Assembly (NCBI GenBank): GCA_009693235.1 | Contig: SHXR01000016.1 | Span: 1 to 64,000 of the forward strand | Reading direction: 5' to 3' | Source: Betaproteobacteria bacterium | Lineage (GTDB): Bacteria > Pseudomonadota > Gammaproteobacteria > Burkholderiales > SG8-39 | DNA: 64,000 bases | Shown: piece after piece, positions 6,395 to 33,175 of the stretch | Position numbering within the stretch: position 1 is the first letter of the stretch | Layout: each line of letters opens with the position of its first letter | Notes under the pieces: model-generated | Told to the model about the DNA's origin: nothing | Database searches by the model: none | Seen by the model: only the letters and a program-made list of their open reading frames with translations | Translations under genes and position numbers: made by a program

Positions 6395-7134
6395 GAGTCG
6401 CTATTCTCGAAGACGATCCAGCACAGATCGATCTCGTTACCCTCTGGCTTAACAATTCGGGCTTCAACTGCCATGTCTTTACCTATGGCAAGGAGTTCAC
6501 GCGGGCACTGACGCGCGAAAGCTTCGATATCTTTCTGCTCGATTGGGAGTTGCCCGATATCACAGGCGCCGATGTCCTTCAATGGATCAGACAAAACGTG
6601 CGGGACGCGACACCGGTGATCTTCACGACCGCGCGCGACCGTGAGGAAGACATCGCGGCCATGCTCAAAGCCGGTGCCGACGACTACATCGTCAAGCCGC
6701 TGCGCAAAATGGAACTGCTCGCGCGGATTCACGCCGTCATGCGTCGCAGCCGCAATGAGAAACCCGCGGACGATGTGTTTGAGATCGGCGAGTTCCGCGT
6801 CAATGTCGAATCCCGCACGGTTCATCGGCACGGCCAACAGGTCGAGCTGACCCAGAAAGGCTTTGACTTGGCAGTGTTCCTGTTCCGCAACCTGAGCCGC
6901 CTGCTGTCCCGCGGTCATATCCTTGAGAACGTATGGGGTCGCAGCTCGAATCTCAATACGCGGACGGTCGACACGCATGTCAGCCGCCTGCGCTCGAAGC
7001 TTGGCTTGGTCCCGGAACATGGTTGGCGTCTGGTTGCGATCTACCAACACGGTTATCGGTTGGAGCAGATCCACAAAGACGAGCAGAACGACTCGGTCAA
7101 TACTGGCATCCCAACGCCGGCGACGACCACCTGA
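6391..7134 (+). CDS. OmpR/PhoB-type response regulator
   Basis: The 247-residue regulator has an N-terminal receiver domain with phospho-acceptor D51 in FLLDWELPD, the acidic residues EDD near the start and the lysine in IVKPLRK. A winged-helix DNA-binding domain follows (about 125-232), with VELTQKGFDLAVFLF and RTVDTHVSRLRSKLG typical of the PhoB/OmpR class. It is the output of the CHASE2 kinase / HPt relay. The pairing of a hybrid kinase and separate HPt with an OmpR-type regulator is less usual than the simple kinase-regulator pair. Targets are unknown. Transcription ends at the hairpin 16 bases downstream. Confidence 0.92.
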   Translation: MRVAILEDDPAQIDLVTLWLNNSGFNCHVFTYGKEFTRALTRESFDIFLLDWELPDITGADVLQWIRQNVRDATPVIFTTARDREEDIAAMLKAGADDYIVKPLRKMELLARIHAVMRRSRNEKPADDVFEIGEFRVNVESRTVHRHGQQVELTQKGFDLAVFLFRNLSRLLSRGHILENVWGRSSNLNTRTVDTHVSRLRSKLGLVPEHGWRLVAIYQHGYRLEQIHKDEQNDSVNTGIPTPATTT

Positions 7135-7150
7135 TTGGGATCATCGATCA

Positions 7151-7180
7151 AACAACGGCGACCATAGGTCGCCGTTGTTT
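7151..7180 (+). terminator. Rho-independent terminator, probably bidirectional
   Basis: A perfect 13-bp stem (AACAACGGCGACC pairing with its complement at 7167-7179) closes on a three-base loop, ATA. The stem begins AACAA and ends TTGTTT, so a short U-rich tail forms on either strand. It lies between the convergent regulator gene and S8 protease pseudogene and can terminate both. Confidence 0.85.
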
Positions 7181-7198
7181 ATTGTGCGGAACACCGCT

Positions 7199-17667: not shown

Positions 17668-18747
17668 CTATGAAACGTCAACGATCCGCACCCTGACTTT
17701 GCGCTCTACCTCCCCGCGGCGCACGGTGAATTCGGCTTCGTTACCGATGCCCGCGCGATCCAGCGCGCTCACAAAAGCGGTCACGTTGCCAACCGGCTGA
17801 CCGTTGACCGCCACGATGATGTCGCCGACCTCACCGGTGCGCACATCAAAAGGCGTGAGGCCGCCCTTCGCAGCCGGCGAGTTGGGCGCCACGCCCAAAA
17901 TAACGACGCCCACAATGCCTGCCCGCGCGGTCACGGACTGATCTGCGGCCATGATGCCGATGCCAGGTCGCGGCGCTTTCCCACGCTTGATGAGTTCGGG
18001 CACGATCCGATTGACGAGGTCCACCGGAATGGAAAATCCAACGCCCGTGGACGATCCGGATTCCGAAAGAATCGCGGTATTCACACCGATCAGGCGACCC
18101 GCCGAATCGAGTAACGGTCCACCTGAATTGCCCGGATTGATGGCTGCATCCGTTTGAATGACGCCGGAAATTTCGCGGATCTCCGAAGTGGGCAAGTGAC
18201 GATCCAGTGCACTCACGATGCCCGTCGTCAGCGTGCGCGACAGGCCGAAGGGATTGCCGATCGCAAACACCGATTGGCCGATTTTCAATTCGGCGGAATT
18301 CCCGATCGTGATCGGTCGTAATTGAGCGGGCAGATCGGTGAGACGCACCACCGCAAGGTCGTATTCAGGCGCCGCACCCACCAGGGTCGCGCGAATCGGG
18401 TTGCCGACATCCAACTGCACATTGATCCGATTGGCGCCCTCGATCACATGAAAATTGGTGACGATGTGCCCGGCTCTGTCCCACACGAAGCCGGAACCGG
18501 CGCCCTGCGCGACGTTCGCGCCCATCACCCCGCGTCGCTGCAGCGTCTCGGTAAATATATAGGCCACCGATGGCGCCGCATTCTCGAAGAGTTCGATGAC
18601 GCTTTTTTCCTGATCGGCCAGCATGCCGCGTGGCGTCACGGTGCGTGGCTCCGCGTCAGTCAGCACGAAGCGCGTGTAAAGCTTGTCGACGACCCAATAG
18701 GCGCCAAAAATGATCAGAACGATCCAGATGACACGGGATAAACGCAT
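17668..18747 (-). CDS. Membrane-anchored HtrA/DegS-like serine protease
   Basis: A 359-residue periplasmic protease anchored by one N-terminal membrane segment (VIWIVLIIFGAYWVV). The trypsin-like domain has the full triad: histidine in TNFHVIEGA, aspartate in YDLAVVRL, serine in NPGNSGGPLL. One PDZ domain follows (about 265-355), the DegS/HtrA layout, unlike DegP with two PDZ domains. Such proteases cleave anti-sigma factors or damaged proteins in envelope stress. The ATG at 18747 is chosen because the family N-terminus and the basic-then-hydrophobic anchor begin there. It is divergent from the amidase that opens the catabolic operon. Confidence 0.9.
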   Translation of the reverse strand: MRLSRVIWIVLIIFGAYWVVDKLYTRFVLTDAEPRTVTPRGMLADQEKSVIELFENAAPSVAYIFTETLQRRGVMGANVAQGAGSGFVWDRAGHIVTNFHVIEGANRINVQLDVGNPIRATLVGAAPEYDLAVVRLTDLPAQLRPITIGNSAELKIGQSVFAIGNPFGLSRTLTTGIVSALDRHLPTSEIREISGVIQTDAAINPGNSGGPLLDSAGRLIGVNTAILSESGSSTGVGFSIPVDLVNRIVPELIKRGKAPRPGIGIMAADQSVTARAGIVGVVILGVAPNSPAAKGGLTPFDVRTGEVGDIIVAVNGQPVGNVTAFVSALDRAGIGNEAEFTVRRGEVERKVRVRIVDVS

Positions 18748-18925
18748 GAGGATACTGCGAAGGCACGGCGCATCGACCGTTCGCATTGCAAAGTGACTGG
18801 AGGCGGGATACTGCCTGAATGTAGGTTGCCCTGCACGCCGGTTCAGTCGGCATTCATACCGCGGGCCCCTGCATGTCTGATCGCAGTGCAGTACCCTTGC
18901 AGGATTCATCTCCGAGGATCTATGC

Positions 18926-20356
18926 ATGCCAGCGCTTCGCGACGACAACGGAATCCGCTCCGCCCTTGACATTGCACGCATGGTCCGGGACGGTACGGCA
19001 ACACCAAGCGCCATAACGGCCGAATGCCTGGCACGCATCGACGCAACCCAGGCGACATTGAACGCTTATGTGACGGTCTGTCATGCCGAAGCAATGCGTG
19101 ATGCCAAGGCACTCAATGCCGCGGCGACATCGCAACCACTATTGGGCGTGCCGGTTTCGGTCAAGGACAACATCGAAACGGTGGGCGTGCGCACGACCTT
19201 TGGATCGAAAACGCGGGCCGCCAACATGCCCGCAACGGAAGGCGTCGCGGTCAAACGACTGCGCGCAGCCGGGGCGGTGATGGTCGGCAAGACCACGCTG
19301 CCGGAATTTGCCTCGAGCCTATTGGGCGAATCGCCGCTTACCGGCAGCACGCGCAATCCCTGGAATCTTGCGCTGAGCCCAGGCGGCTCCAGTAGCGGGG
19401 CCGCAGCGGCCGTTGCTGCAGGCCTCGGACCGATCGCGCTCACCACCGATGCGGGCGCCTCGACCCGCCTGCCCGCTGCGCTTTGCGGCGTGCTCGGTAT
19501 CAAGCCGTCCATGGGTCTCATCCCTTATGAACTCTTTCCGGATGGATTCGGTAATTTCATCCATATGGGTCTCATGACCCGTACCGTCGGCGATATGGCC
19601 GCAGCGCTCGATGTTGTCTCCGGCGCAGACGCCAGTGATCCGCTATCGATCGGCGTTGCACCGACGCGCGCCTTGGCGAAACTGGCCGAGCCGCTCGCCC
19701 TTGGGAAAAGTCGGATCGCCTGGCGCCCGTTGCTGGGCAACGCGGCGCTCGACGACGAGGTGCGGGCCTTGTGTGAACGCACGCTCGAAGTCTTTAAAGA
19801 CCGCGGTGCAACAGTCGACACTGTCATCGAACCCTTTGAGGGCGCCGGACCGACCTGGCGCGTCTTGCAACAGGTCAATTGGGCAGGCCGCTTCGCAGTG
19901 CCGGACGAGGCCACAGCGGCAATGATGGATCCCGGATTCGTCGCCGGCATTCGCGCGGGCGCCGCCATCTCCGGAAATGAATTGAATGCGGCCATCTACA
20001 AGCGCACGAGTTACTTCAGAATGGTCCAGACATGGTTTCAATCGTTCGATTGGCTGGCCACACCGGTTACGACCGTATCAAGCGTCGCTGCCGACGCCAA
20101 AGGCGATGCCCCACTCACCATCAACGGCCAACCGGTCGGGGAATTGCGCGCCGTCCTGGCCCCTTATTTGAACGTGTTCAATCTCACCGGGCACCCGGCC
20201 ATCAGCGTACCGGCTGGCTTCACCAAGGCAGGTGTGCCGGTTGGCATTCAACTGGTCGGTCGCCTTTACGCCGACACCGACTTACTGCGGATGGCAAAGC
20301 TCATCGAAGACATCCAACCGTGGGCGAGTCGGATTCCCGCTGCCGCACCACATTGA
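18926..20356 (+). CDS. Amidase-signature family amidase
   Basis: A 476-residue member of the amidase-signature family, which hydrolyses amides to acids and ammonia with a Ser-cisSer-Lys triad. The lysine is in PVSVKDNIET, the cis-serine in SPGGSSSGAA, and the nucleophilic serine in TDAGASTRLPA, where the usual GGS is AS-preceded but the serine is kept. Cytoplasmic, no signal peptide. As first gene of the run of closely spaced plus-strand genes to 30531, it may release an aromatic acid from an amide precursor for the oxygenases downstream; that is inference. The next gene starts 13 bases later. Confidence 0.88.
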   Translation: MPALRDDNGIRSALDIARMVRDGTATPSAITAECLARIDATQATLNAYVTVCHAEAMRDAKALNAAATSQPLLGVPVSVKDNIETVGVRTTFGSKTRAANMPATEGVAVKRLRAAGAVMVGKTTLPEFASSLLGESPLTGSTRNPWNLALSPGGSSSGAAAAVAAGLGPIALTTDAGASTRLPAALCGVLGIKPSMGLIPYELFPDGFGNFIHMGLMTRTVGDMAAALDVVSGADASDPLSIGVAPTRALAKLAEPLALGKSRIAWRPLLGNAALDDEVRALCERTLEVFKDRGATVDTVIEPFEGAGPTWRVLQQVNWAGRFAVPDEATAAMMDPGFVAGIRAGAAISGNELNAAIYKRTSYFRMVQTWFQSFDWLATPVTTVSSVAADAKGDAPLTINGQPVGELRAVLAPYLNVFNLTGHPAISVPAGFTKAGVPVGIQLVGRLYADTDLLRMAKLIEDIQPWASRIPAAAPH

Positions 20357-20369
20357 CTCACCGCCCATC

Positions 20370-21362
20370 ATGTCAAAACTGAAACTCACGCTCGCCGTCT
20401 GCGATTACGATCGCACGAAGGCCATCTTCCAGGGCCGCGTGTCGGTCGAAGGGGTGGATCTTATTCCGCTTGCAGTGGGCGCCGAGGAATGCTTCCACCG
20501 CGCCTTTAAATACCAGGAGTTCGACATTTGCGAACTGTCGTTGTCGAGTCATTCGGCAACCACCTCGCGCGGTGAAAGCCACTACATCGGCATCCCAGCC
20601 TTCGTATCGCGAGTGTTTCGACACAGCGGCATCTATGTGCGCACCGATAGGGGCATCAAAACACCCCAAGATCTACGCGGCAAGATCGTCGGCCTGCCTG
20701 AGTACCAGATCACCGCGAACGTCTGGATTCGCGGCACGCTGCAAGACGATTATGGCGTGAAACCCGCAGAAATTCGCTGGCGGCGCGGTGGCATCGAGGA
20801 GCCTGGGCGCGGTGAGCGATCACCAATTCAATTGCCGCCCGATGTAGAGTTGCTGCAGATCCCGGACCACCAGACGCTATCTGGCATGCTCGAAACAGGC
20901 GAGATCGACGCGATGATCACCGCCCGGGCGCCCTCCTGTTTTGATCGGAAGGTGCCGCATGTCGATCGCCTGTTTCCGAATTTCAAAGCGGTCGAGCAAG
21001 AATATTTCCAACGCACCCGCCTCTTTCCGATCATGCACCTCATCGGCATTCGCAAGTCGCTCGTTGAACAGTACCCATGGCTCGCGGTCAACCTCTACAA
21101 CGTATTTCTCGCCGCCCAAAAGGTGGCGGTCAAGGAGTTGTATGAACTCACGCAGCTCATGATCAATCTGCCCTGGGCGGTCGACCACTATCAGGAAACG
21201 GTCCGCGTCATGGGCGAAGACTTCTGGCCCTATGGTTTCCACGAGAATCGGCAGAACCTCGACACGTTTCTTCGGTTCCATCATGAACAGGGGCTGTCCA
21301 AACGGCGGGTGGCCGCAGCCGAACTGTTTGCCCCATCGACGTTTGATTTAGCTAAGATCTGA
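20370..21362 (+). CDS. 4,5-dihydroxyphthalate decarboxylase / ABC substrate-binding-like family protein
   Basis: A 330-residue protein with the typical family N-terminus (LKLTLAVCDYDRTKAIFQGR) and the conserved block RHSGIYVRTDRGIKTPQDL, GLPEYQITANVWIRG, WRRGGIEEPGR. It has the fold of periplasmic binding proteins but no signal peptide. Members include Pht5 4,5-dihydroxyphthalate decarboxylase, while many others are annotated only as ABC-type binding proteins. In this operon, beside oxygenase genes, an aromatic decarboxylase role is plausible. The ATG at 20370 gives the family's usual start; a longer frame upstream overlaps the amidase and is not credible. Confidence 0.8.
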   Translation: MSKLKLTLAVCDYDRTKAIFQGRVSVEGVDLIPLAVGAEECFHRAFKYQEFDICELSLSSHSATTSRGESHYIGIPAFVSRVFRHSGIYVRTDRGIKTPQDLRGKIVGLPEYQITANVWIRGTLQDDYGVKPAEIRWRRGGIEEPGRGERSPIQLPPDVELLQIPDHQTLSGMLETGEIDAMITARAPSCFDRKVPHVDRLFPNFKAVEQEYFQRTRLFPIMHLIGIRKSLVEQYPWLAVNLYNVFLAAQKVAVKELYELTQLMINLPWAVDHYQETVRVMGEDFWPYGFHENRQNLDTFLRFHHEQGLSKRRVAAAELFAPSTFDLAKI

Positions 21363-21398
21363 TCCTACCGAAGCGCCCCGCAACACCGGAGGTTTGCC

Positions 21399-22691
21399 AT
21401 GTTCAGCAACGATACGGTTATTCATCCGCTCGGATCGACATCAAAGGAGCGCGAACCCGCGTCCTACCAATGGCCCGCCGAAGGTCTTGCCGCCATCCCC
21501 GATTGGATTTACACCAGCGAATGGATCTACGATCGTGAGATGGCGCGGATCTTCCACGGCAAAACATGGAATTTCGTTGCTTTGGAAGCCGAGGTTCCGC
21601 ACGCGGGCGATTTCAAACGATCATACGTCGGCCCAACGCCGGTGGTCGTGGTCCGCGACGAAGCGGGCGGCGTGCAGGTGTTCGAGAACCGTTGCGCGCA
21701 TCGCGGTGTTGAATTCTGCCGGCATGCACGCGGCAACACGACCGAGTTTGTCTGTCCCTACCACCAGTGGACTTACGATCTGCATGGCGACCTGCAAGGC
21801 ATCCCGTTCAAGCGCGGCATCAAGGGCGAGGCCGATAGCGGCATGCCCGCCGACTTCAACAACAAGCAGCACGGACTTCGCAAGCTGAACGTCGAGTGCC
21901 TGCATGGCGTGGTATTCGCCTCCTTCGCCGAGGCTATGGAACCGGTTGCGCAATATCTCGGTGAGGAAGTGCTGAAGGATTTCGCGGTGGTGTTCAAGGA
22001 TCGCAAGCTGAAGATCCTTGGCTATTACCGAAACGAGCTGCCCGGCAATTGGAAGCTCTATCAGGAAAATTTGAAAGACCCCTATCACGCCACCCTGCTC
22101 CACTCTTTCCTAGTGACGTTCGGGCTGATGGTTGCAGGCAGCAAGACATCGATGATCGCCGATCCCACCGGACGGCATGGCACGATGGCTTCACGCCGAC
22201 CCGACGATGTCTCGAAGGTGGTCGATAGCAACACCGCAAAAGAAATGCGCGCCTACCGTACCGATCTCAAGTTGGCTGATACCCGGTTCCTCGAATTCAT
22301 TCCCGAGTTCAACTCACCATGGACGGTGACGATGCAGACCATCTGGCCCAATATGATCGTGCAGCGCGAACTCAACACGCTCGGCGTACGGCAGATCGTA
22401 CCCAACGGCCCCAATAGTCAAATCATGATTTGGACGATGTTCGGCTATGACACCGACACACCGGAAATGACGCGCCATCGCCTACGCCAGGGCAACCTGA
22501 TGGGCCCCTCCGGATTTCTCGGCTTGGAGGACAATGAAGCCATCAAGTTCCTGCAGGAAGGCGTACGCCGATCACCGAGCGATCGCGGCGTGCTAAAACT
22601 TGGCGGTAAGAGCGAAGGAACGGGCGGCATCATTAGCGAATCGGCGATTCGCGCGATGTATCGCAGCTATCGTGAGGTGATGGAACTGTGA
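21399..22691 (+). CDS. Rieske aromatic ring-hydroxylating oxygenase, alpha subunit
   Basis: The 430-residue catalytic subunit. The Rieske [2Fe-2S] ligands are C99, H101, C119 and H122. The mononuclear iron site is in ENLKDPYHATLLH, with H230 and H235 as ligands and D227 linking to the neighbouring Rieske centre. The motif resembles the anthranilate 1,2-dioxygenase / salicylate 5-hydroxylase branch. It works as an alpha-beta oligomer with the next gene, whose ATG overlaps this stop by four bases. No ferredoxin or reductase gene is in the window, so electrons must come from proteins encoded elsewhere. Substrate unknown; an aromatic carboxylate is likely. Confidence 0.9.
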   Translation: MFSNDTVIHPLGSTSKEREPASYQWPAEGLAAIPDWIYTSEWIYDREMARIFHGKTWNFVALEAEVPHAGDFKRSYVGPTPVVVVRDEAGGVQVFENRCAHRGVEFCRHARGNTTEFVCPYHQWTYDLHGDLQGIPFKRGIKGEADSGMPADFNNKQHGLRKLNVECLHGVVFASFAEAMEPVAQYLGEEVLKDFAVVFKDRKLKILGYYRNELPGNWKLYQENLKDPYHATLLHSFLVTFGLMVAGSKTSMIADPTGRHGTMASRRPDDVSKVVDSNTAKEMRAYRTDLKLADTRFLEFIPEFNSPWTVTMQTIWPNMIVQRELNTLGVRQIVPNGPNSQIMIWTMFGYDTDTPEMTRHRLRQGNLMGPSGFLGLEDNEAIKFLQEGVRRSPSDRGVLKLGGKSEGTGGIISESAIRAMYRSYREVMEL

Positions 22692-23200
22692 AAATCGCCG
22701 GTTACGAGCAACAACCCGTCGATGCGCGGCTCGCGCGCGAAGCACGCTGGGACGTCGAAGAGTTTCATGCAGCGTATTGCCAGTTGCTGGACTTGGGCGA
22801 CATTGAACAATGGGCCGATTTTTTCACCACCGACTGCCTCTACATCATCACCGCCCGCGAGAACGCTGAAGCCGATCTTCCCGTAGGTCTCGTGTATGCA
22901 GAAGGTCGCGACATGATTCGCGATCGCGCGTTCGCGGTGCGCCACACGCAGATGTTCGCGCCGCGCTATTTGCAGCACTTTGTGTCCAACGTGTTGATCC
23001 TCGCCGTCGCGGGCAACGAGATCCGCGCGCAATCGAACTATCAACTGCTGCAAACGCTCGTGGAAGGCCCGACCACGCTTCTGCAAGCAGGACGCTATTA
23101 CGACACCTTCTGGCGTGAGAATGGTCGGCTGCTCATCGAGGAGCGCCGCTGCATCTACGATACGACGTTGATTGCCAACGACCTCGTCCTACCGGTATAG
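22688..23200 (+). CDS. Ring-hydroxylating oxygenase, beta subunit
   Basis: A 170-residue small subunit of the SnoaL/NTF2-like fold. Recognisable blocks are EVEEFHAAYCQLLDLGDIEQ-like start (here DVEEFHAAYCQLLDLGDIEQ), the YRDM-type helix (EGRDMIRDRAFAVRHT) and ILIEERRCIYDTTLIAN-like end. It is structural and stabilises the alpha subunit. Start overlaps the alpha stop (ATGA type), so the two are made in equal amounts. It ends 34 bases before the molybdenum hydroxylase large subunit. Confidence 0.88.
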   Translation: MKIAGYEQQPVDARLAREARWDVEEFHAAYCQLLDLGDIEQWADFFTTDCLYIITARENAEADLPVGLVYAEGRDMIRDRAFAVRHTQMFAPRYLQHFVSNVLILAVAGNEIRAQSNYQLLQTLVEGPTTLLQAGRYYDTFWRENGRLLIEERRCIYDTTLIANDLVLPV

Positions 23201-23234
23201 TGATTTTTCAACGCACGGTCTTGAAGCGAACCCA

Positions 23235-25607
23235 ATGAGCGAATTGCACGGCAAACCCGGACAAGGTATCGGCGCCCGCGTACCACGCAAGGAAGATGCA
23301 CGGCATCTGCATGGACGCGGCAATTTCGTCTCCGACCTCATCTTTCCCGGCCAACGTGAAGTGGTCTTTCTACGCAGCCCGATCGCGCATGGCATCCTCC
23401 GCGGTATCACCAAACCAGCCGGGTTTGAATCGGTAGTCTATGCACGCGCCGACATCGCGGGCATCCGCAACATTGAAGCACCTTCGACGCTGCCCACCTA
23501 CAAGCTGTCAACGCAACCACCGCTCGCCCAGGGCAAGGTGCGTTTCGTGGGTGAGCCGGTCGCGATGGTCGTCGCGAAAACCCGGGCGGAAGCGGAGGAT
23601 ATCGCCGAGCAAATCCAACTCGACATCGAAGAGCTGCCGGCGCTGGTCGACGCCCATCGAGCGCGGCTGGACACCGACGTGCGCGTCCATAACGAGTGGA
23701 GCGACAACCTGTTTCTCACGCTCGATTTCGACAACAACTTCGAAGCGGAGTCGAAGAAGGCGACGATCGTCGTCACCCGCGAGATCAATCTTGCGCGACA
23801 AGCGATGGTGCCGATGGAAGGACGCGCCATCGTCGCGCATTGGGACGATCGGGCCGGCCAATTGATCGTCTACACATCCACCCAAGCGCCGCATGTGATC
23901 CGTGTAGGGCTCGCGCAGTTTCTTGGCATCGATGAAGGTATGATCCGCGTGATCTCACCCGATGTCGGCGGCGGCTTCGGTTTAAAGTGTGTGCTGTGGC
24001 CGGAAGAACTGTGCGTCGCCTGGCTCGCCCTGACGCAAAAGAAACCATTTCGCTACATCGAAGATCGCCGCGAACATCTCACCGCCGGCGCCAACTGCCG
24101 CCAGCATCACTACACAGTCACTGCGTACGCCGATCAACGCGGCCGGCTCCTCGCACTTGATGCGCAAATTACCATCGACGGCGGCGCGTATTCCAATTGG
24201 CCATTCACCATCGGTCTTGAGCCGGGACAAGCGACCGGCAACCTTCCCGGCCCGTATGAGTTCAAAGGCTACCGCTGCAAGACCTACTGCGTCGCGACGA
24301 ATAAACCGGGGTTTCTTCCCTATCGGGGGGTAGCGAGAACCGGCGTGTGTTTTGCGATGGAACTCATCATGGATGCCATCGCGCGTGCGGTCGATCGCGA
24401 TCCCTATGAAGTGAGATACGAGAATCTCATTCCTCCGCAATTGATGCCCTACAACAATGTGTCGCGCAAGCACTATGACAGCGGCGATTATCCGCGCGCG
24501 CTGGCGATGGTCCGGGAAAAGCTCGATTACGACGGCTGGCTGGCGCGTAAAGCGCAGGGTGAACCGGATGGGCGTTTGATCGGCATCGGCTTCGCGAGCT
24601 ATTGCGAACAATCGGCGCATGGCACAAGCGTCTTCGCCTCATGGGGCCTGCCGCTGATCCCTGGCTACGATCAAGCCACCGTTCGCACCACTCCAGACGG
24701 CGGTCTGGAAATCCGGGTGGGCGTTCATTCGCACGGTCAGGGGATGGAGACCACTCTTGCACAGGTGGCGCATGAAGTGGTCGGCGTGCCGATCGAACGC
24801 ATTCGCGTCGTGCATGGCGACACCGGCATAACGCCGTTTTCCACGGGAACCTACGCCTCACGCAGCATCGTCATGGCAGGCGGTGCAGTGGGTCGCGCCT
24901 GTCAAACGCTGTTGCCGCGGTACATCCACATTGGTGCGCATCTACTAAAGTGCAAACCCGACGATGCACGCTTCGAGAAAAGCGAAGTGGTCGGTCCAAA
25001 TGGCCGCGTCTCACTGAAAGAGATTGCGACGGCGTGGTTCCTGCGCCCCGAGCGGCTGCCGGTCGATGTCGATCGCGATGGGCTGGAAGCGACCGTCGGC
25101 TACAAGCCCACGGTCGACACCGGCGCCTTTACATACGCCTCACACGGTGCAGTGATCGCGGTCGATCCGGAAGTGGGCGGGATCGAGATCCTTGACTATG
25201 TGATCGTCGAGGACTGCGGAACGATGGTCAATCCGATGGTGGTGGAAGGCCAAACCTTGGGCGGTGTCGCGCAAGGGATCGGTACCGCAATGTTTGAAGA
25301 GTCGCCCTACGATGCCAATGGCCAGCCGCTTGCATCGACCTTCATGGACTATACGATGCCAGGCGCAACCGAAATCCCCGCGATCCGCATCTATCACACC
25401 GAGTCACCCTCGCCTTACACGTTATTCGGCATCAAAGGCATGGGGGAAGGCGGTGCGATCGCTCCTCCTGCGGTCATTTTTAACGGCGTCAATGATGCGC
25501 TGAAGGATCTGGGGGTCGAAGTGAATGAAACGCCGCTCACGCCAAAGAAACTGCTGGAAGCGATTGAGCGTGCAAGGCAAGCCCACCCGCAACGCAAAGT
25601 CGCATAG
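23235..25607 (+). CDS. Molybdenum hydroxylase large (molybdopterin-binding) subunit, CoxL/XDH family
   Basis: A 790-residue catalytic subunit of the xanthine dehydrogenase / CO dehydrogenase family. Seen: N-terminal RVPRKEDARHLHGRGNF, PDVGGGFGLK in the Mo-pterin region, LPYRGVARTGV at the loop where true CO dehydrogenase has its AYRCSFR active-site motif (absent here), and the catalytic glutamate in KGMGEGGAIAPP. It should therefore hydroxylate an organic ring or aldehyde with water-derived oxygen, not oxidise CO. The ATG at 23235 follows the beta-subunit gene by 34 bases. Partners are the FAD and FeS subunits that follow directly. Confidence 0.9.
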   Translation: MSELHGKPGQGIGARVPRKEDARHLHGRGNFVSDLIFPGQREVVFLRSPIAHGILRGITKPAGFESVVYARADIAGIRNIEAPSTLPTYKLSTQPPLAQGKVRFVGEPVAMVVAKTRAEAEDIAEQIQLDIEELPALVDAHRARLDTDVRVHNEWSDNLFLTLDFDNNFEAESKKATIVVTREINLARQAMVPMEGRAIVAHWDDRAGQLIVYTSTQAPHVIRVGLAQFLGIDEGMIRVISPDVGGGFGLKCVLWPEELCVAWLALTQKKPFRYIEDRREHLTAGANCRQHHYTVTAYADQRGRLLALDAQITIDGGAYSNWPFTIGLEPGQATGNLPGPYEFKGYRCKTYCVATNKPGFLPYRGVARTGVCFAMELIMDAIARAVDRDPYEVRYENLIPPQLMPYNNVSRKHYDSGDYPRALAMVREKLDYDGWLARKAQGEPDGRLIGIGFASYCEQSAHGTSVFASWGLPLIPGYDQATVRTTPDGGLEIRVGVHSHGQGMETTLAQVAHEVVGVPIERIRVVHGDTGITPFSTGTYASRSIVMAGGAVGRACQTLLPRYIHIGAHLLKCKPDDARFEKSEVVGPNGRVSLKEIATAWFLRPERLPVDVDRDGLEATVGYKPTVDTGAFTYASHGAVIAVDPEVGGIEILDYVIVEDCGTMVNPMVVEGQTLGGVAQGIGTAMFEESPYDANGQPLASTFMDYTMPGATEIPAIRIYHTESPSPYTLFGIKGMGEGGAIAPPAVIFNGVNDALKDLGVEVNETPLTPKKLLEAIERARQAHPQRKVA

Positions 25608-25612
25608 CGCCG

Positions 25613-26443
25613 ATGAAATCCGCCAAGTTCGACTACACCCGCCCACATGATGTGCGCGCAGCCATTCACGCGCTGGCTGACGCCCTTGGTGAAGCGAAGT
25701 TTCTCGCTGGCGGCCAATCGCTAGGGCCGATGCTCAACTTGCGCCTCACCCGTCCGAAGCTGCTGGTCGATGTGTCCCGGATCGAAGCACTGCGTAGCAT
25801 CGACGTCGTCAACGGTTCGATCCGGATCGGCGCGGCAGTCACCCATGCTGAAATCGAGGATGCCGGCGCAAGCTTGGCCCGCAATGCAATGCTGCCTGCA
25901 GTGGCGCGTGAGATTGCCTATCGCACGATTCGCAATCGCGGCACCATCGGCGGCAGCCTGGCTCATGCCGATCCTGCCGCGGATTGGCCCCTTGCGCTTG
26001 CCGCACTGGATGCGGTGATCATCGTGAATGGCCCGGCCGGACAACGCTCGATCCCCTCGGCCCGTTTCATGCTGGCCGCCTTCACCACGCAACTGGCCGA
26101 TGACGAAATGATCGAAGCGATCATCGTCCCTGAGCTCTCGCCCAGCGCGCGCTGGGGCACCTACAAATTCTGCAAACGCACCGGCGAGTTCCCGGATGCA
26201 GCCGCCATGGCGGTGTTCGATCCGGCACGCAGAATCGCCCGCGTCTACGTCGGGGCGTTGAGTGGCGCGCCGGTACCCTTGGATGCCCTGGCAAGGGGCA
26301 TCGCGCAGCAAGGTGCCGTTGCATTGACGGCAACGGCGGTCGATCGCGCGATCGCCATGGCGGTGCCGGAACTCGATGCGGTCGGTCGAAAAATGCATGC
26401 CGCGACCACGATGCGTGCGGTACAACAAGCGCTGGCATCATGA
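25613..26443 (+). CDS. Molybdenum hydroxylase FAD-binding subunit (CoxM-like)
   Basis: A 276-residue FAD subunit of the CoxM family. FAD-binding motifs are LAGGQSLGPML near residues 32-42 and TIRNRGTIGGSLAHADPA near 105-122, the AGGQS and TIGG signatures of this group. It passes electrons from the FeS clusters to an acceptor. Gene order L-M-S is as in many non-CO molybdenum hydroxylases of Burkholderiales. The next gene overlaps its end by four bases. Confidence 0.9.
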   Translation: MKSAKFDYTRPHDVRAAIHALADALGEAKFLAGGQSLGPMLNLRLTRPKLLVDVSRIEALRSIDVVNGSIRIGAAVTHAEIEDAGASLARNAMLPAVAREIAYRTIRNRGTIGGSLAHADPAADWPLALAALDAVIIVNGPAGQRSIPSARFMLAAFTTQLADDEMIEAIIVPELSPSARWGTYKFCKRTGEFPDAAAMAVFDPARRIARVYVGALSGAPVPLDALARGIAQQGAVALTATAVDRAIAMAVPELDAVGRKMHAATTMRAVQQALAS

Positions 26444-27624
26444 ATCAGGTGGTTTTCACGCTCAATGGCGAACGCACCGAAGCGCTGGTGGAACCGCGCC
26501 TGCATCTGGCCGACTATCTTCGCGATACGTCGCGCCTTACCGGCACCCACCTTGGCTGCGAGCACGGCGTGTGTGGTGCGTGCACCGTTCTCATCGATGG
26601 GCAGCCCGCGCGCTCCTGCATCGCTTTCACCGTCGCCTGCGACGGGCGGGACGTTCGCACTATCGAGGGCTTCGAAGACGATGCGTTGATGAAGGATCTA
26701 CGCACCGCGTTCACCCGCGACCACGCACTGCAATGCGGCTTCTGCACACCAGGCATGTTGATTGCCGCGCGCGACGTCGTGATGCGTTGCCCAGACGCTG
26801 ATGACAAGCGCATCAGGAGCGAAATGTCCGGCAATCTATGCCGATGCACCGGCTACTTAGGTATCGCCAACGCCATCAATAGCGTCATCCAAGCAAGACG
26901 GGGCGGCGGCGCGACCCCGGCGATCCGCACGGCGATTGCCGCCAACGCACCGGTCGTGCAACCCCTCGCCAAACCATGGCAGGCCTTTACGCCGGCCGAT
27001 GCAGAAGCCGCCGCACCAAGACCCGCCGTTGCGGCGCCGCTCGATGACGCCGGTCCGCGCGAAGGCTGGCAGCGGATCGAGGAAAGCTTCATTGCCAATC
27101 ATTCGCCTGGTCGCGTGTGGGAAATCTTTGCCGATACCGCAGGCGTTGCTGCCTGCCTGCCTGGCGCGTCCATCGATGAAGCAACACCGACGAGCGCCAA
27201 GGGGCGGATCGATGTTCGGTTCGGGCCGATGAAGGCATCGTTTGCCGGTGCGACCTCCCTCGAACGCAATGAGACCCGCATGGAAGGCCGGATCAGGGGT
27301 GGCGGGAGCGATTCGCTGACCGGATCACGCGCCAAAGCGGACATCACTTATCGGCTAGCGAGCGAACACGACCGCACGCGGGTTTCGATCGTCATGGATT
27401 ACAACCTGCAAGGCCCGCTCGCGCAGTTTTCCAGGTCGGGTATCGTGAAGGCCTTCGCCGGGCGGATGGTCGCGCAGTTCGGTGAAAATTTGAATGCAAA
27501 ACTGGGCGGTGGGTCCGCGCCTATTCCACTTGCCGCAGGCCGGACCGCAGAATTGAACGCCGGCAATGTGCTTTGGCAGTGGCTGTGGAGCACGATCAAG
27601 AAGCTTTTGGGTCTAACGCGATAG
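26440..27624 (+). CDS. Fusion of molybdenum hydroxylase [2Fe-2S] subunit (CoxS) with a CoxG/SRPBCC domain
   Basis: A 394-residue protein made of two parts. Residues 1-160 are a CoxS subunit with two [2Fe-2S] clusters: C40, C45, C48, C60 (plant type) and the later CGFCTPGM and GNLCRCTGY (alpha-helical type). After a linker rich in Ala and Pro (about 165-205), residues 210-370 form a CoxG-like SRPBCC domain (SPGRVWEIFAD, ACLPGAS, VRFGPMKASFAG), ending in a short hydrophobic tail (LWQWLWSTIKKLLG). CoxG of CO dehydrogenase recruits the enzyme to the membrane, so the fusion may tether this enzyme as one unit. Confidence 0.9.
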   Translation: MNQVVFTLNGERTEALVEPRLHLADYLRDTSRLTGTHLGCEHGVCGACTVLIDGQPARSCIAFTVACDGRDVRTIEGFEDDALMKDLRTAFTRDHALQCGFCTPGMLIAARDVVMRCPDADDKRIRSEMSGNLCRCTGYLGIANAINSVIQARRGGGATPAIRTAIAANAPVVQPLAKPWQAFTPADAEAAAPRPAVAAPLDDAGPREGWQRIEESFIANHSPGRVWEIFADTAGVAACLPGASIDEATPTSAKGRIDVRFGPMKASFAGATSLERNETRMEGRIRGGGSDSLTGSRAKADITYRLASEHDRTRVSIVMDYNLQGPLAQFSRSGIVKAFAGRMVAQFGENLNAKLGGGSAPIPLAAGRTAELNAGNVLWQWLWSTIKKLLGLTR

Positions 27625-27634
27625 GAGACGGACG

Positions 27635-27997
27635 ATGGCACTCATTCCATTGGCAACACAGGGCAACTTCTTCCACATCTACGATTTTCGGGTGAAAGAA
27701 GGCATGATCGATGAGTTCGTGCGGCTCTTCAACGAATTCGACTACTCCGATCACAATCCGATGCACAAGTCGGCCGCGCAGGTGAAAGACGGCGTGCTGG
27801 TCCAAGACACCAAGGACCCGCAGCGTTTTTGGCTGATCGCGGAATGGTCGGACATCGAAGAGCATGCGCGGATTCGCAAGGTGCTCGTCGAGATGAAACC
27901 TGCATTCGTGAAGTGCATCGAAGGCGGCAAGTTCATTCCCGATTACGGCAAGATCGTGTCCAGCACGCCGGAACACATTCTGAACAAAGCCGCGTAA
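27635..27997 (+). CDS. Small ABM-like (antibiotic biosynthesis monooxygenase fold) protein
   Basis: A 120-residue protein with the length and pattern of a ferredoxin-like dimeric alpha-beta barrel: NFFHIYDFRVKEGMIDEFVR at the start and a strand FWLIAEWSD in the middle. Such proteins act as cofactor-free monooxygenases, isomerases or lyases in aromatic breakdown, or have no known role. It sits 10 bases after the CoxS-CoxG gene and 20 bases before the isomerase, with AGGAG in front. Family placement is from pattern only; function unknown. Confidence 0.55.
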   Translation: MALIPLATQGNFFHIYDFRVKEGMIDEFVRLFNEFDYSDHNPMHKSAAQVKDGVLVQDTKDPQRFWLIAEWSDIEEHARIRKVLVEMKPAFVKCIEGGKFIPDYGKIVSSTPEHILNKAA

Positions 27998-28017
27998 TTC
28001 AACTTCGAATCGATCCC

Positions 28018-28662
28018 ATGCAGCTCTACACCTTCTTTCGTTCTTCCACTTCCTTTCGCCTGCGAATTGCGCTCGCCTATAAGGGTATGTCGTATGAGGC
28101 GCGCTACACCAGCTTGCCGAAAATGGAACATGCCAAACCGGACTACTTGTCGGTGAATCCGCAAGGGCTGGTACCGGCGTTGATCGATGATTCCGGCAAA
28201 GTGTTCACGCAATCGATGGCGATGATCGAGTATCTGGATGATTTGAAGCCGGCGCCCGCGCTCATGCCGAAGCATCCCGAAGAGAAGTGGTATGTGCGCG
28301 CGGTCGCGCAGATCATCGGCTGTGAAATGCATCCGCTCAACAACGTCCGGGTGCTTAAATACCTGAAAACCGCCTATGCCTTGGATGACAACAAGATCAA
28401 CAAGGAGTGGTATCCGCACTGGATTCATGAAGGCATGCGCGGGCTGGAGTCCCTCATCGCCTCGCAAGGGCGCGCCGGCACGTACTGCCTCGGCAACCAG
28501 TTCACGATGGCCGATGTGTGTCTCGTCCCGCAGATCTACAACGCCAAGCGATTCAATTGCGATATGACCCCCTATCCGGCCGCGATGAAGATCTTCGAGG
28601 CATGCGCCCAACTGGATTGCGTCAAAACCACTGAACCTGCGACGCAAAGCGACGCCATCTGA
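28018..28662 (+). CDS. Maleylacetoacetate / maleylpyruvate isomerase (zeta-class GST)
   Basis: A 214-residue glutathione-dependent enzyme. The active-site signature near the N-terminus, FRSSTSFRLRIALAYKG, is that of zeta-class GSTs (SSxSxRVR type); QSMAMIEYLDD is the glutathione site, and the C-terminal domain has ADVCLVPQIYNAKRF. The zeta enzyme isomerises maleylacetoacetate or maleylpyruvate to the fumaryl form after ring cleavage of homogentisate or gentisate. With the Rieske oxygenase it hints at a gentisate-type route, though no ring-cleavage dioxygenase is in the window. The start at 28018 is the family start. Confidence 0.87.
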   Translation: MQLYTFFRSSTSFRLRIALAYKGMSYEARYTSLPKMEHAKPDYLSVNPQGLVPALIDDSGKVFTQSMAMIEYLDDLKPAPALMPKHPEEKWYVRAVAQIIGCEMHPLNNVRVLKYLKTAYALDDNKINKEWYPHWIHEGMRGLESLIASQGRAGTYCLGNQFTMADVCLVPQIYNAKRFNCDMTPYPAAMKIFEACAQLDCVKTTEPATQSDAI

Positions 28663-29901
28663 GTGAGTGCCGCATCACGAGCAGATAGCAATTCCTACGC
28701 GGTCACACGGCTTGTCGCATCGCTCGTCCTGATGACGATCGGCAACGGCGGCATGTACGCCGCGACCGTCGCCTTGCCGTTGGTACAAGCAGATTTCGGC
28801 ATCGGACGCTCCGATGCGTCACTCCCCTACACGCTCACCATGATCGGCTTTGGACTGGGCGGCATCATGATGGGCCGTCTCGCCGATCGATTCGGTGTGA
28901 TGATGCCGGTGATCGGTGGCGCGATTTTTATTTGCGGCGGTTTTGTCGCTGCCTCGTTCGCGCCGAACATTTGGACTTTCGCGCTCCTACACGGCGTTCT
29001 GATCGGCTTTTTCGGCTGCGCCGCCACATTCGCACCGCTTATCGCGGACGTATCGCAGTGGTTCACCAAGCGCCGCGGCATCGCGGTAGCCATCGTCATC
29101 AGCGGCAACTATGTCGCCGGGGCCATCTGGCCGCTCGTACTGGAAAACACATTCTCGTCGGTCGGCTGGCGCGCAACGTACATCGGCGTGGGCATCTTTA
29201 GCCTCGCCACGATGATTCCGCTCGCCCTGTTGCTGGGGCGCCCACCGCCCTCCCACGAGAATGGCGACAGCGCCCCACATGTCCGTTTTGTCGCGGACCG
29301 CCCACTCGGTTTTTCCCCAGCCGTATTGCAAGCGATTCTGGTGCTGGCAAGCATCGCCTGCTGTGTCGCGATGTCGATGCCGATCGTGCATATCGTCGCG
29401 TACTGTGGTGATCTGGGGATCGCGGCGGCGCGCGGCGCTGAAATGCTCTCCTTGATGCTCGCCTCGGGGATCGTGAGCCGGCTTGCGTCCGGATGGATCT
29501 CCGATCAGATCGGTGCGTTACGCACCCTCCTCCTCGGTTCGACCTTGCAGGGCGCCGCGTTGCTGCTCTTTCTCCCGTTCGATGGACTCGCATCGCTCTA
29601 CGTCGTGTCGGCCATGTTCGGCTTATTTCAAGGCGGCATCGTACCGATGTACGCGATCATCGTGCGCGATTATTTCCCCCCAAGTGAAGCCGGCACGCGC
29701 GTAGGCGTAGTGATGATGGCAACCATGCTTGGTATGGCGCTTGGCGGCTGGATGTCGGGTGCCGTGTTTGATCTCACCGGTTCCTACCGGGCGGCGTTTC
29801 TCAATGGCTCGGCATGGAACCTGTTTAATGTTGCGATTGCCGCTTGGTTGCTCTATCGTCATACTCGGCTTTACCCCACCGCAGATCGGAGTCGCCAATG
29901 A
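28663..29901 (+). CDS. MFS transporter (12 membrane segments)
   Basis: A 412-residue major facilitator with 12 hydrophobic segments and the family loop motifs GRLADRFGV (between segments 2 and 3) and GWISDQIGALRT (between 8 and 9). A GTG start follows the isomerase stop with no gap. Related carriers move aromatic or monocarboxylic acids with protons, which suits import of the operon's substrate; this is inferred from place. It ends by overlapping the start of the broken GST gene by four bases. Confidence 0.87.
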   Translation: MSAASRADSNSYAVTRLVASLVLMTIGNGGMYAATVALPLVQADFGIGRSDASLPYTLTMIGFGLGGIMMGRLADRFGVMMPVIGGAIFICGGFVAASFAPNIWTFALLHGVLIGFFGCAATFAPLIADVSQWFTKRRGIAVAIVISGNYVAGAIWPLVLENTFSSVGWRATYIGVGIFSLATMIPLALLLGRPPPSHENGDSAPHVRFVADRPLGFSPAVLQAILVLASIACCVAMSMPIVHIVAYCGDLGIAAARGAEMLSLMLASGIVSRLASGWISDQIGALRTLLLGSTLQGAALLLFLPFDGLASLYVVSAMFGLFQGGIVPMYAIIVRDYFPPSEAGTRVGVVMMATMLGMALGGWMSGAVFDLTGSYRAAFLNGSAWNLFNVAIAAWLLYRHTRLYPTADRSRQ

Positions 29902-30531
29902 AACTCAAACTCTACTATGCCCCATCGCCCGTTCACTCGTCCCATTGATTGCATTGCATGAAGCGGACGCCGAGTTCGAGCTCCGCCCGGTGTCGCTGAA
30001 AAGCGGCGAACAGAAAACGCCCGAGTACCTCAAGGTCAACCGAAAGGGAAGGTCCCAGCGCTTGATGTCGACGGCGAGATCCTGACTGAAAACGTCGCCA
30101 TCCTCAGCTTTCTTGCGCGGACGTTTCCCAATGCCAATTTGCTACCGACTGACCCAAAGAATTCCATCAAGGCGCTCATCCTGATGGGATTCTGCGGCGC
30201 CGGCATGCATCCACCGCTCACCCGCATCAACGGGCCGGTACGATTTTGCGATGTGCCCGGCACCGAAGAGAGTGTGCGCAAGCTCGCGGTCGAGGAGGTC
30301 ATCAAAAATTTCACGGTCGCCGACGAACTTCTCGCCGGACGCGAATGGCTCTTCGATCACTGGACCGCGGTGGACGCCTACTTCTTTTGGGTGTGGCGCC
30401 GGTTTGGTCTGTTCGACATCAAGATCCCAGCGTTCTCGAACTATGCCGCGCATGGTGAGCGCATGATGAAACGTGCCAGCGTGCAAAAGGCTTTCGCGTA
30501 CGAAAAGGAAGTGCAGGCAAAGGGTATCTAA
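29898..30531 (+). pseudogene. Glutathione S-transferase with two frameshifts
   Basis: Three frame segments together give a complete GST of about 211 residues: MKLKLYYAPS, then ARSLVPLIALHEADAEFELR through PEYLKVN, then KVPALDVDGEILTENVAILS and the rest to KEVQAKGI. Frame one is lost near 29936-29940 in TCGCCCG, and frame two near 30040-30041 where AACCGAAAG stands for the expected AACCCGAAAG. Each is one missing base next to a C or G run. As part of the catabolic operon an intact GST would fit. I score it as a pseudogene, with real doubt that the indels are errors. Confidence 0.75.
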
Positions 30532-31156: not shown

Positions 31157-33175
31157 ATGCAGGCGTCACGATGGATCTACGCGACGCTGGGCATCGCATT
31201 GACCGGCGCAGTCCTGCACCTTTCGGGACTCGCAGCGTGCCTGGAATATCTTCTATCAGATGTCTTCCTCGCTACGGCGGAGCGCGCACCCGATCCATCG
31301 ATCGTTATCGTCGAGATTGACAACGCAAGCTTGGAGAGAATCGGGCGTTGGCCCTGGTCACGCGCCATCCATGCCGAATTCGTCGACCTGGCACAGCGGG
31401 CGGGCGCCAAATCGGTCGGCTTCGACATTGCCTTTGCCGAGCCGGACGCGGCCGATCTGAACGGCGATGCAATATTTGCAGCCACGCTCGCCCGCAGCGA
31501 TCGAGTCGTGTTACCGGTCTTCGTCAAGCGCGATGAGACCGGCATTCCATGGGAATCGCGTCCCCTCCCGCGCCTAGCCGTCGCAGCCAGACTCGGCCGG
31601 GTCGATGTACCGATTGACCGTGATGGCTTGGTACGGCGCACCATTGAGGACCACCGCAACCCCGCTCTCCGCGCAACGACCTTTGCCAATGCAGCGTGGG
31701 AAGCGAGCAAGGAGCCCGCTTCGCCTGGCGATCCGGCCCACCCTGCGAAAGAGCGGCCGCACTATGAAGAACGTCTGATCCCGTTCTGCTCATTTAATGG
31801 GCGTTTCAGTCGACTATCGTTTGCCGACGTCATAGCCGACCCCGGTCAGGCCGCATTCCTACGCGAGCGCATCGTACTCGTCGGCGTCACGGCGCCCCGC
31901 TTGGCTTCCGGACTCCTGGTTCCCGGCAAGGGCAGCCCGCGCATGCTGAGCGGCATTGAAGTGCAAGCGCATGTGCTCAATGCCATCAAACAGGGTTCGC
32001 TCGTGCGCGCGGCAGGTTGGGTCCTCGATGCTACTGCCGCAGTGCTCGCGTTGGTGGTGATGGTCGATGTCATGGTGTTTATGCGTGCTCCTCGCTGGGT
32101 CAATGCCACTGTCGCCGCGACACTCGTCGTCTGCGGATTGGTGCCGGCGTTGCTGCTGCTTAAAAACATCTGGCTGTCGCCCGCGCTGCCTATCCTCATC
32201 CTTACCACCGGATACGCCACCTGGTGGTGGCTCTATCCCCGCACCACGGAGCGTTTGATCCAACCATTCCGATCGCATCCGGATGTGACGAGGCAATCAT
32301 CCGAGGACGCGTTCGTCATGCACAACGAGGACGGCTTGCACGTTGAGCAAGATGACGGGCATGGCAAAAGCAATCTCGATCTGCAAATGGACCTTGCCCA
32401 TGCGATCGAGCGGAACGAACTGCTGTTGCACTATCAGCCACAAATTGATGTGACGGGCGGGCGCGTGGTCGGCGTGGAGGCCCTTATCCGATGGCAGCAT
32501 CCCCGTCTTGGGCTACTTGGCCCCGATCGCATTATCCCGGTCGCGGAAGCTGCCGATCTCATCATCGCCACCGATGATTGGGTAGCCCATACAGCCGCAC
32601 ACCAGCTTGCGGCATGGCGAAAAAGCGATTTTCCGCTATTGACCATGAGTATCAATGTATCGAATCGGCAACTGCTGCGCACCGACCTCGTCACCCTGGC
32701 AAAGCACATCATCGATGAGAGCGACACTGGGCGCGGTGAACTGATCTTCGAGGTCACCGAGCGCATGTTGATACATGACCCTGATCAGTGCGCAAAAACG
32801 ATTGCGGCGATTCGAGGCATCGGCATTGGCGTATCCATCGATGATTTCGGAACCGGATATTCCTCCCTGGCCCATCTTCAGAATCTTACGGTCGACCAGA
32901 TCAAGATCGACCAGTCGTTCATCCAATTGCTACCGGACGATCACGGCGGTGCCGCCACTGTGCAAGCCGTCCTCAACATGGCCCGCACGCTTGGCATTCC
33001 AACCGTCGCGGAAGGCGTCGAAACGAGGGCGCAGCTCGAGTGGCTGCGCGCGCAGCATTGCGAAAAAGTGCAGGGGTACTTGTATAGTCGGCCGGTCGCC
33101 GCCAGCGAGCTTCCCGACCTGATCAATGCGATCCAGAATCGAATGACGCTGGCGCAGGCAATCGCTGAAAAATAA
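31157..33175 (+). CDS. CHASE2-EAL protein: membrane sensor c-di-GMP phosphodiesterase
   Basis: A 672-residue membrane protein. After one N-terminal segment comes a CHASE2 domain (about 30-280, with PDPSIVIVEIDNASL), then three membrane segments (about 285-365), and a cytoplasmic EAL domain (about 405-655). The EAL motif is VEALIRWQHP, with the metal-site segments MSINVSNRQL, EVTERML, SIDDFGTGYSSL and VAEGVET all present. It should hydrolyse cyclic di-GMP in response to an outside signal. There is no GGDEF domain. The same sensor domain occurs in the histidine kinase at 3.5 kb. Confidence 0.9.
   Translation: MQASRWIYATLGIALTGAVLHLSGLAACLEYLLSDVFLATAERAPDPSIVIVEIDNASLERIGRWPWSRAIHAEFVDLAQRAGAKSVGFDIAFAEPDAADLNGDAIFAATLARSDRVVLPVFVKRDETGIPWESRPLPRLAVAARLGRVDVPIDRDGLVRRTIEDHRNPALRATTFANAAWEASKEPASPGDPAHPAKERPHYEERLIPFCSFNGRFSRLSFADVIADPGQAAFLRERIVLVGVTAPRLASGLLVPGKGSPRMLSGIEVQAHVLNAIKQGSLVRAAGWVLDATAAVLALVVMVDVMVFMRAPRWVNATVAATLVVCGLVPALLLLKNIWLSPALPILILTTGYATWWWLYPRTTERLIQPFRSHPDVTRQSSEDAFVMHNEDGLHVEQDDGHGKSNLDLQMDLAHAIERNELLLHYQPQIDVTGGRVVGVEALIRWQHPRLGLLGPDRIIPVAEAADLIIATDDWVAHTAAHQLAAWRKSDFPLLTMSINVSNRQLLRTDLVTLAKHIIDESDTGRGELIFEVTERMLIHDPDQCAKTIAAIRGIGIGVSIDDFGTGYSSLAHLQNLTVDQIKIDQSFIQLLPDDHGGAATVQAVLNMARTLGIPTVAEGVETRAQLEWLRAQHCEKVQGYLYSRPVAASELPDLINAIQNRMTLAQAIAEK

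Follow-up and report, generated by a model that had tools for sequence, protein, structure and literature searches.

The 64,000-nucleotide stretch of DNA analysed here (positions 1 to 64,000 of contig SHXR01000016.1, Betaproteobacteria bacterium, assembly GCA_009693235.1, GTDB lineage SG8-39; hereafter the window) carries an operon of ten intact genes in which a Rieske oxygenase and a molybdenum (Mo) hydroxylase, both related to enzymes of picolinate degradation, stand together with an amidase, a relative of the 4,5-dihydroxyphthalate decarboxylase Pht5, a small protein of the ABM fold and a zeta-class glutathione S-transferase (GST) resembling the maleylpyruvate isomerase NagL. We consider it fairly probable that this operon degrades picolinate, or a relative reaching the same path, via a variant lower half that we call the 'aza-gentisate' route. 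The upper half is already known from the picolinate pathway and the new part is the replaced lower half, of which no earlier report was found in the literature searched, most subscription papers lying outside it.

The operon was compared with the best 80 of 584 confirmed relatives, obtained by scanning named genomes with the Rieske alpha subunit. Loci were called type I when at least one of PicC-G lay near the oxygenase (calls at 50-60% identity over at least half of the length) and type II when they carried the ABM-fold protein, whose replacement set often includes the NagL-like GST and the amidase; L, G and C numbers are our handles for loci, genomes and contigs. Within the stretch examined, at least one of PicC-G was found in 60 of the 80 loci and at least two in 57. 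The PicC-G labels come from the published pic gene order, as given in the accessible part of PMC10142695, from Pfam (amidohydrolase 2, alpha/beta hydrolase, isochorismatase and Amdase-like matches, the PicD copy having no Pfam match) and from the published picC primer of Bordetella bronchiseptica RB50, which, allowing for 2-3 mismatches, coincides exactly with the beginning of the PicC gene in 8 loci, each of them of type I. Most type I clusters group the genes for the alpha and beta subunits with those for a Rieske ferredoxin and a reductase, as expected of picB1B2B3B4, and have three Mo hydroxylase genes corresponding to picA1A2A3; the names PicA and PicB are based on gene order and subunit number in the same part of PMC10142695 and not on published PicA/PicB sequences.

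The Rieske alpha subunit of the window is 61-69% identical to those of the 60 type I loci, and its Mo hydroxylase large subunit shows 58-67% identity in 45 type I loci. From this synteny and identity we infer that the Mo and Rieske enzymes of the window perform the PicA and PicB reactions, which yield 6-hydroxypicolinate and 3,6-dihydroxypicolinate, respectively (accessible part of PMC10142695). The pic cluster of Alcaligenes faecalis JQ135 and B. bronchiseptica RB50, as described there, shares with the operon the three-subunit Mo hydroxylase (PicA1A2A3) and the Rieske alpha and beta subunits (part of PicB1-B4). Unlike it, the operon has no PicC, D, E, F or G, no ferredoxin, no reductase and no MarR gene, genes which other clusters possess; in their place it carries the ABM-fold protein, the NagL-like GST, the amidase and the Pht5-like gene. 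Two other identities were rejected. The oxygenase reaches 406 bits against the cut-off of 750 for the anthranilate 1,2-dioxygenase AndAc (NF041684), and the Mo enzyme, with its PYRGVAR loop, 568 against 950 bits (NF040766) and 426 against 991 bits (TIGR02416) for aerobic CO dehydrogenase. The sequence-only reading of this DNA had matched the operon to no known path; its Rieske and Mo enzymes now find their counterparts in PicB and PicA while the lower half stays unmatched, and conserved clusters place the parts in a known pathway for the upper half only (60 of the 80 relatives with PicC-G alongside). That reading had also proposed an aromatic or N-heteroaromatic amide or carboxylate as substrate, of which an N-heteroaromatic carboxylate is probable and the attack on an amide unsupported, the amidase tracking the ABM/GST set. 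An initial attack of the amidase on a nicotinamide- or anthranilamide-like amide was thus discarded, since this gene accompanies the ABM/GST set and none of the 60 type I loci has it at the thresholds applied.

No PicC-G gene was detected in the 64-kb window at the thresholds used, PicE, F and G having been sought only there, and a PicD probe (from L020) hit nothing in the genome of the window, 79% complete, or in G001 of the same genus, 91% complete. Of the 27 distinct genomes searched, all 7 of type I, among them the source of the probe, have a PicD match at 75-100% identity; the 20 of type II reach no more than 49%, and four of them have no match at all. The PicC probe behaved likewise, with 62-72% in all 7 type I genomes, a best value of 48% in the 20 type II genomes and 41% in that of the window. 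These data show that close relatives of PicC and PicD are absent from the type II assemblies searched. Among the 80 loci, 60 carry PicC-G, 13 the replacement set, none both and 7 neither (Fisher p 2.5e-10), some of the last being cut by contig ends, and none of the 60 type I loci carries the ABM protein, the GST or the amidase above the thresholds. The GST accompanies the ABM protein in 8 of the 13 loci and so does the amidase, the ABM gene of L011 and L014 being visible once the stretch had been extended. All three genes occur with the same oxygenase in Lacisediminimonas profundi CHu64-6-4 (L064) and Bradyrhizobium elkanii WSM2783 (L086). Adding the window and six further loci retrieved with the ABM protein brings the type II loci to 20, and 15 of these have the oxygenase in the stretch examined.

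The comparison gives good support to an exchange of two lower modules on one upper module; the gene content, the synteny and the exchange itself are read directly from the loci. A first tree, built from 82 alpha subunits with two outgroups, requires six changes for type II, or five without the neither-type loci, and well supported branches force at least three of them. On a more careful tree of 51 rows, freed of the outgroups and of 31 mostly near-identical rows, type II needs 5-6 changes, at least four of them forced, forms one clade in 0 of 200 bootstrap trees and is rejected as one clade by the approximately unbiased test (p 1e-6), figures to be read with caution since the type II group was named after the quick tree had been seen and the branches of L083 and L016 are long. 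One supported group joins the type II loci L082 and L086 to L080, L085 and L088 of type I, and the sister group of type II L062, L064 and L078 consists of eight type I loci and one neither-type locus. Where lower modules alternate on one upper module, the same starting intermediate is expected for both, which implies that the type I and type II modules would start from the same compound.

In the proposed pathway, all substrates, products and activities of which are inferred, picolinate would be converted into 6-hydroxypicolinate by the Mo hydroxylase and then hydroxylated at C3 by the Rieske oxygenase to give 3,6-dihydroxypicolinate; entry could be by picolinate itself or, for example, by pyridine-2,3-dicarboxylate via the Pht5-like decarboxylase. 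At this point the route would depart from the classical one, with neither the decarboxylation by PicC nor the cleavage of 2,5-dihydroxypyridine by PicD. 3,6-Dihydroxypicolinate differs from gentisate only in having N instead of one ring CH, and its ring would be opened oxidatively, the ABM-fold protein being the candidate enzyme, into a cis maleyl-type product; cleavage between the carboxyl- and the hydroxyl-bearing carbons would give N-oxalylmaleamate, the aza-analogue of maleylpyruvate. The NagL-like GST, with glutathione, could then convert the cis into the trans (fumaryl) form, and the amidase could split the C-N bond, releasing fumarate and a C2 amide or acid. In the literature, the routes for picolinate and for nicotinate join at 2,5-dihydroxypyridine and proceed through maleamate (accessible part of PMC10142695). 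A second exit from 3,6-dihydroxypicolinate, if true, would add to pyridine catabolism a branch with gentisate-like glutathione chemistry and perhaps a very small ring-opening enzyme, assign a role to a protein family so far unstudied and alter the annotation of such clusters.

A gentisate-type logic is suggested because, among solved structures, the oxygenase is nearest to salicylate 5-hydroxylase (7c8z, 413 bits, the next at 320) and the GST to maleylpyruvate isomerases (2jl4 and 2v6k, 186 bits, its closest named relatives; an unnamed GST reaches 185 bits and maleylacetoacetate isomerases at most 138). The GST also scores above the cut-off of the profile of maleylacetoacetate/maleylpyruvate isomerases, TIGR01262 (Table 1). 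The nag/gentisate route consists of salicylate 5-hydroxylase, whose product is gentisate, followed by gentisate dioxygenase, maleylpyruvate isomerase and fumarylpyruvate hydrolase. The solved members of this route are thus the nearest to the oxygenase and the isomerase of the window, but the operon has neither gentisate dioxygenase nor fumarylpyruvate hydrolase; it carries the ABM protein and the amidase instead, and a Mo hydroxylase in addition.

The ABM protein appears to be the best candidate for the ring-opening enzyme, a gentisate dioxygenase encoded elsewhere being the main rival. Its homologues (n = 20, 61-97% identical to that of the window) share 41 invariant positions, some of them through mere relatedness, among which are His14, His44, His77, Tyr16, Glu70, Trp71 and Arg81. 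The predicted model (mean pLDDT, a per-residue model confidence score, 89) adopts the ABM fold and resembles the ABM protein 3gz7 (Z 10.6), MhuD (9.1), SnoaB (9.0) and ActVA-Orf6 (8.7); Foldseek likewise supports the fold, with E values of 2e-4 to 1e-3. The sequence remains just below the Pfam cut-off for the family (Table 1). SnoaB and ActVA-Orf6 are cofactor-free quinone-forming oxygenases. According to the accessible part of PMC11181247, AlpJ-family enzymes, which are ActVA-Orf6-like, cleave a hydroquinone ring without cofactor, which gives a precedent. The ABM protein has the fold of these three kinds of oxygenase, but no sequence relative in the PDB at E 1, and its invariant residues likely differ from theirs; fold likeness of this kind shows no function. 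We put forward, tentatively and with considerable doubt, that the ABM protein is a new ring-cleaving dioxygenase opening 3,6-dihydroxypicolinate without decarboxylation, as part of an undescribed aza-gentisate pathway for pyridine carboxylates, with the glutathione-dependent isomerase and the amidase, a pathway that on several occasions took the place of the 2,5-dihydroxypyridine route or gave way to it. The cleavage could be cofactor-free or make use of a metal site, possibly including the three invariant histidines.

The ABM protein is rare: counting the window's genome each time, it occurs in 11 of 98 genomes from the family of the window, in 3 of 399 taken from the order and in 1 of 398 from the phylum. 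It marks type II, partly by definition, and is absent from all 35 genomes of type I or of neither type, as judged with a probe that works on other genome sets. Four of the seven ABM-bearing genomes searched for the oxygenase have a Rieske alpha subunit at 72-77% identity. Clustering of the open reading frames (ORFs) around type II loci, with a home-made gene caller that can miss genes, brought out no conserved extra ring-cleavage gene and gave single-locus or one-group neighbours only: TauD in L013, a PuuE-like hydrolase in L097, DUF1989 in L011, L100 and L101, an FrdA-like flavoprotein together with a 2Fe-2S protein in L094-L096, and a haem-oxygenase-like protein in L098. The last of these (Haem_oxygenas_2) is encoded directly after the ABM gene in L098 (1258-1944), and no other locus examined has one.

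Several observations weigh against the proposed pathway. Of the 20 type II loci, just 13 have the isomerase and just 10 the amidase. Supported branches of the oxygenase tree offer only four independent contrasts, in which the two modules change in opposite directions in 2-4 (mean 3.4) and in the same direction in none, and the pairwise sign test taken by itself is not significant (median p 0.25). Many of the genomes are incomplete metagenome-assembled ones, that of the window included. In the ABM-bearing genomes G841, G842 and G038 nothing comes close to a pic-type Rieske alpha subunit (best-scoring matches 37-46%; a 133-residue piece of G842, 49%); the contigs that carry the ABM gene are short in G841 and G842, yet G842 is rated 99% complete, and for this reason the protein may have other partners. 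Finally, gentisate 1,2-dioxygenase is found above the cut-off in 16 of the 20 type II genomes, including that of the window (C30:7048-8049), which leads to the possibility, in our view rather doubtful, that this enzyme or a gentisate-like cupin encoded elsewhere opens 3,6-dihydroxypicolinate, the ABM protein being an accessory that removes, for example, an oxidised by-product. Three genomes of genus g7 carry a gentisate-like cupin (395-405 bits, cut-off 442) at a distance of about 6-14 kb from the operon, on its GST side. On the other side, four type II genomes have no gentisate dioxygenase above the cut-off (G029, G844, G853 and G854, the last with just 24 bits), the enzyme does not track the module, being found also in 5 of the 7 type I genomes, and its action in trans would leave unexplained why the ABM protein marks type II.

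Two further explanations were considered. In one of them, oxidation of 3,6-dihydroxypicolinate by the ABM protein would yield a trihydroxy or quinone-like compound, whose ring lactam the amidase would open, and the GST would isomerise the maleyl-keto acid thus formed. The quinone-forming oxygenases among the fold matches (SnoaB and ActVA-Orf6) are in agreement with this scheme, as are other possible hydrolases near some type II modules, such as the PuuE-like gene of the polysaccharide-deacetylase family in L097; the common fold, however, shows no function and the amidase is absent from half of the type II loci, so that we regard the scheme as unlikely. The type II module could also serve another substrate, the specificity of the Rieske and Mo enzymes having shifted and the lower genes belonging to the path of another compound. 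The limited identity of the window's alpha subunit to those of type I (61-69%) and the Pht5-like gene, which suggests a dicarboxylate, are consistent with such a shift, but the type II loci are interspersed with type I on the oxygenase tree and the alpha subunits of L062, L064 and L078 are closer to type I than to the window, which makes it improbable. Picolinate, or a compound reaching its path, is retained as the substrate proposed here. As separate observations on the loci mentioned, a PuuE-like hydrolase gene lies in L107, on the contig C30 of the window's genome (10534-11433), about 2.5 kb from the gentisate 1,2-dioxygenase gene (7015-8061), and a hydrolase judged by eye to be similar follows the ABM gene in L097. 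The segment 1966-14694 of L104, beside the type II operon of a genome of genus g7, encodes, besides two gentisate-like cupins, another Pht5-like protein and another amidase (partly judged by eye).

The Pht5-like protein gives no match to Pfam and NCBIfam profiles with hmmscan and matches over its full length the solved 4,5-dihydroxyphthalate decarboxylase 9jp7. Its gene is found in 6 type II loci (the window included), 7 type I loci and one neither-type locus; in 6 of the 7 type I loci (L040, L067, L072, L073, L041 and L075) it lies beside a second Mo hydroxylase, 34-36% identical to that of the window, a pair which, next to classical pic clusters, possibly serves as a feeder for another pyridine carboxylate. 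Quinolinate is the aza counterpart of phthalate, and this protein might accordingly remove a carboxyl group from a hydroxylated pyridine-2,3-dicarboxylate to yield 6-hydroxypicolinate. The literature searched gave no support for 6-hydroxyquinolinate as a substrate of Pht5-like proteins; the accessible part of PMC6644310 does no more than name the decarboxylation of 6-hydroxyquinolinic acid among the (putatively) prenylated-FMN-dependent reactions and leave the class of 4,5-dihydroxyphthalate decarboxylase open.

The genes are listed in Table 1, with families assigned by hmmscan against Pfam and NCBIfam and, for the Pht5-like protein, via solved structures. The motifs of the amidase fit the Lys-Ser-Ser triad of its family. 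As the sequence-only reading had it, the operon is one tightly spaced unit, all genes lying on the plus strand in the order given, with intergenic gaps of -4 to 36 bases. Of its eleven genes, ten are intact, from 18926 to 29901; the eleventh is interrupted by two frame changes in three-frame translation, the ORF 30139-30531 being just its C-terminal part, and may be either a pseudogene or an assembly error. The unit is opened by the amidase and the Pht5-like gene, as described; the isomerase, said to close it together with the carrier, is the ninth gene, and the carrier and the broken GST-like gene stand at the end. The reported lack of a ring-cleavage enzyme and of an oxygenase reductase holds for known families in profile scans of the operon genes, which found no oxygenase ferredoxin either.

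Table 1. Genes of the operon and its two neighbours (positions in the window)
Gene product	Position	Strand	Gap to preceding gene (bases)	Evidence
Protease-like ORF (upstream neighbour)	17668-19038	-		family judged by eye
Amidase-signature hydrolase	18926-20356	+		Pfam Amidase 307 bits; GKT at 121, GGSSSG at 153, D.G.S.R at 175
Pht5-like protein (4,5-dihydroxyphthalate decarboxylase relative)	20370-21362	+	13	phmmer 9jp7, residues 1-327, E 4e-95
Rieske oxygenase alpha subunit, putatively PicB-type	21399-22691	+	36	Rieske and Ring_hydroxyl_A; C.H...C..H at 99, D.YH...H at 227
Rieske oxygenase beta subunit	22688-23200	+	-4	Ring_hydroxyl_B 50 bits; SnoaL_4
Mo hydroxylase large subunit, putatively PicA-type	23235-25607	+	34	MoCoBD_1, MoCoBD_2, Ald_Xan_dh_C; GMGEG and PYRGVAR motifs
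Mo hydroxylase FAD subunit	25613-26443	+	5	FAD_binding_5 157 bits
Mo hydroxylase 2Fe-2S subunit fused to CoxG domain	26440-27624	+	-4	Fer2, Fer2_2, COXG; cysteine motifs
ABM-fold protein, 120 aa	27635-27997	+	10	Pfam ABM (PF03992) 21.1 bits, cut-off 23.1
Zeta-class GST, maleylpyruvate isomerase (NagL)-like	28018-28662	+	20	TIGR01262 245 bits, cut-off 171
Major facilitator superfamily (MFS) carrier	28663-29901	+	0	MFS_1 160 bits; SfMCT 130 and oxalate/formate family 98 bits, both far below NCBIfam cut-off
Second GST-like gene, broken	29898-30531	+	-4 (overlap with MFS stop)	GST nature judged by eye
CHASE2-EAL protein (downstream neighbour)	31157-33175	+		

In the same-genus genome L093, order and spacing are kept from the amidase to residue 62 of the carrier, where the contig ends, at 85-97% identity, and the arrangement of the operon is therefore conserved and not due to chance. 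The flanking genes look unrelated to it. The closest match to a pic ferredoxin in the window's genome (C23:7347-7634) is 43% identical, and this genome, of 3.9 Mb, has 17 matches to the catalytic domain of Rieske oxygenases. Transport genes vary among the relatives, with ATP-binding cassette or TRAP transporters in many of them and the MFS carrier in the window, where it would probably serve substrate uptake. A DUF1989 gene is located between the TRAP-transporter and the Mo hydroxylase genes in the type II loci L011, L100 and L101 (e.g. 14463-15359 in L101).

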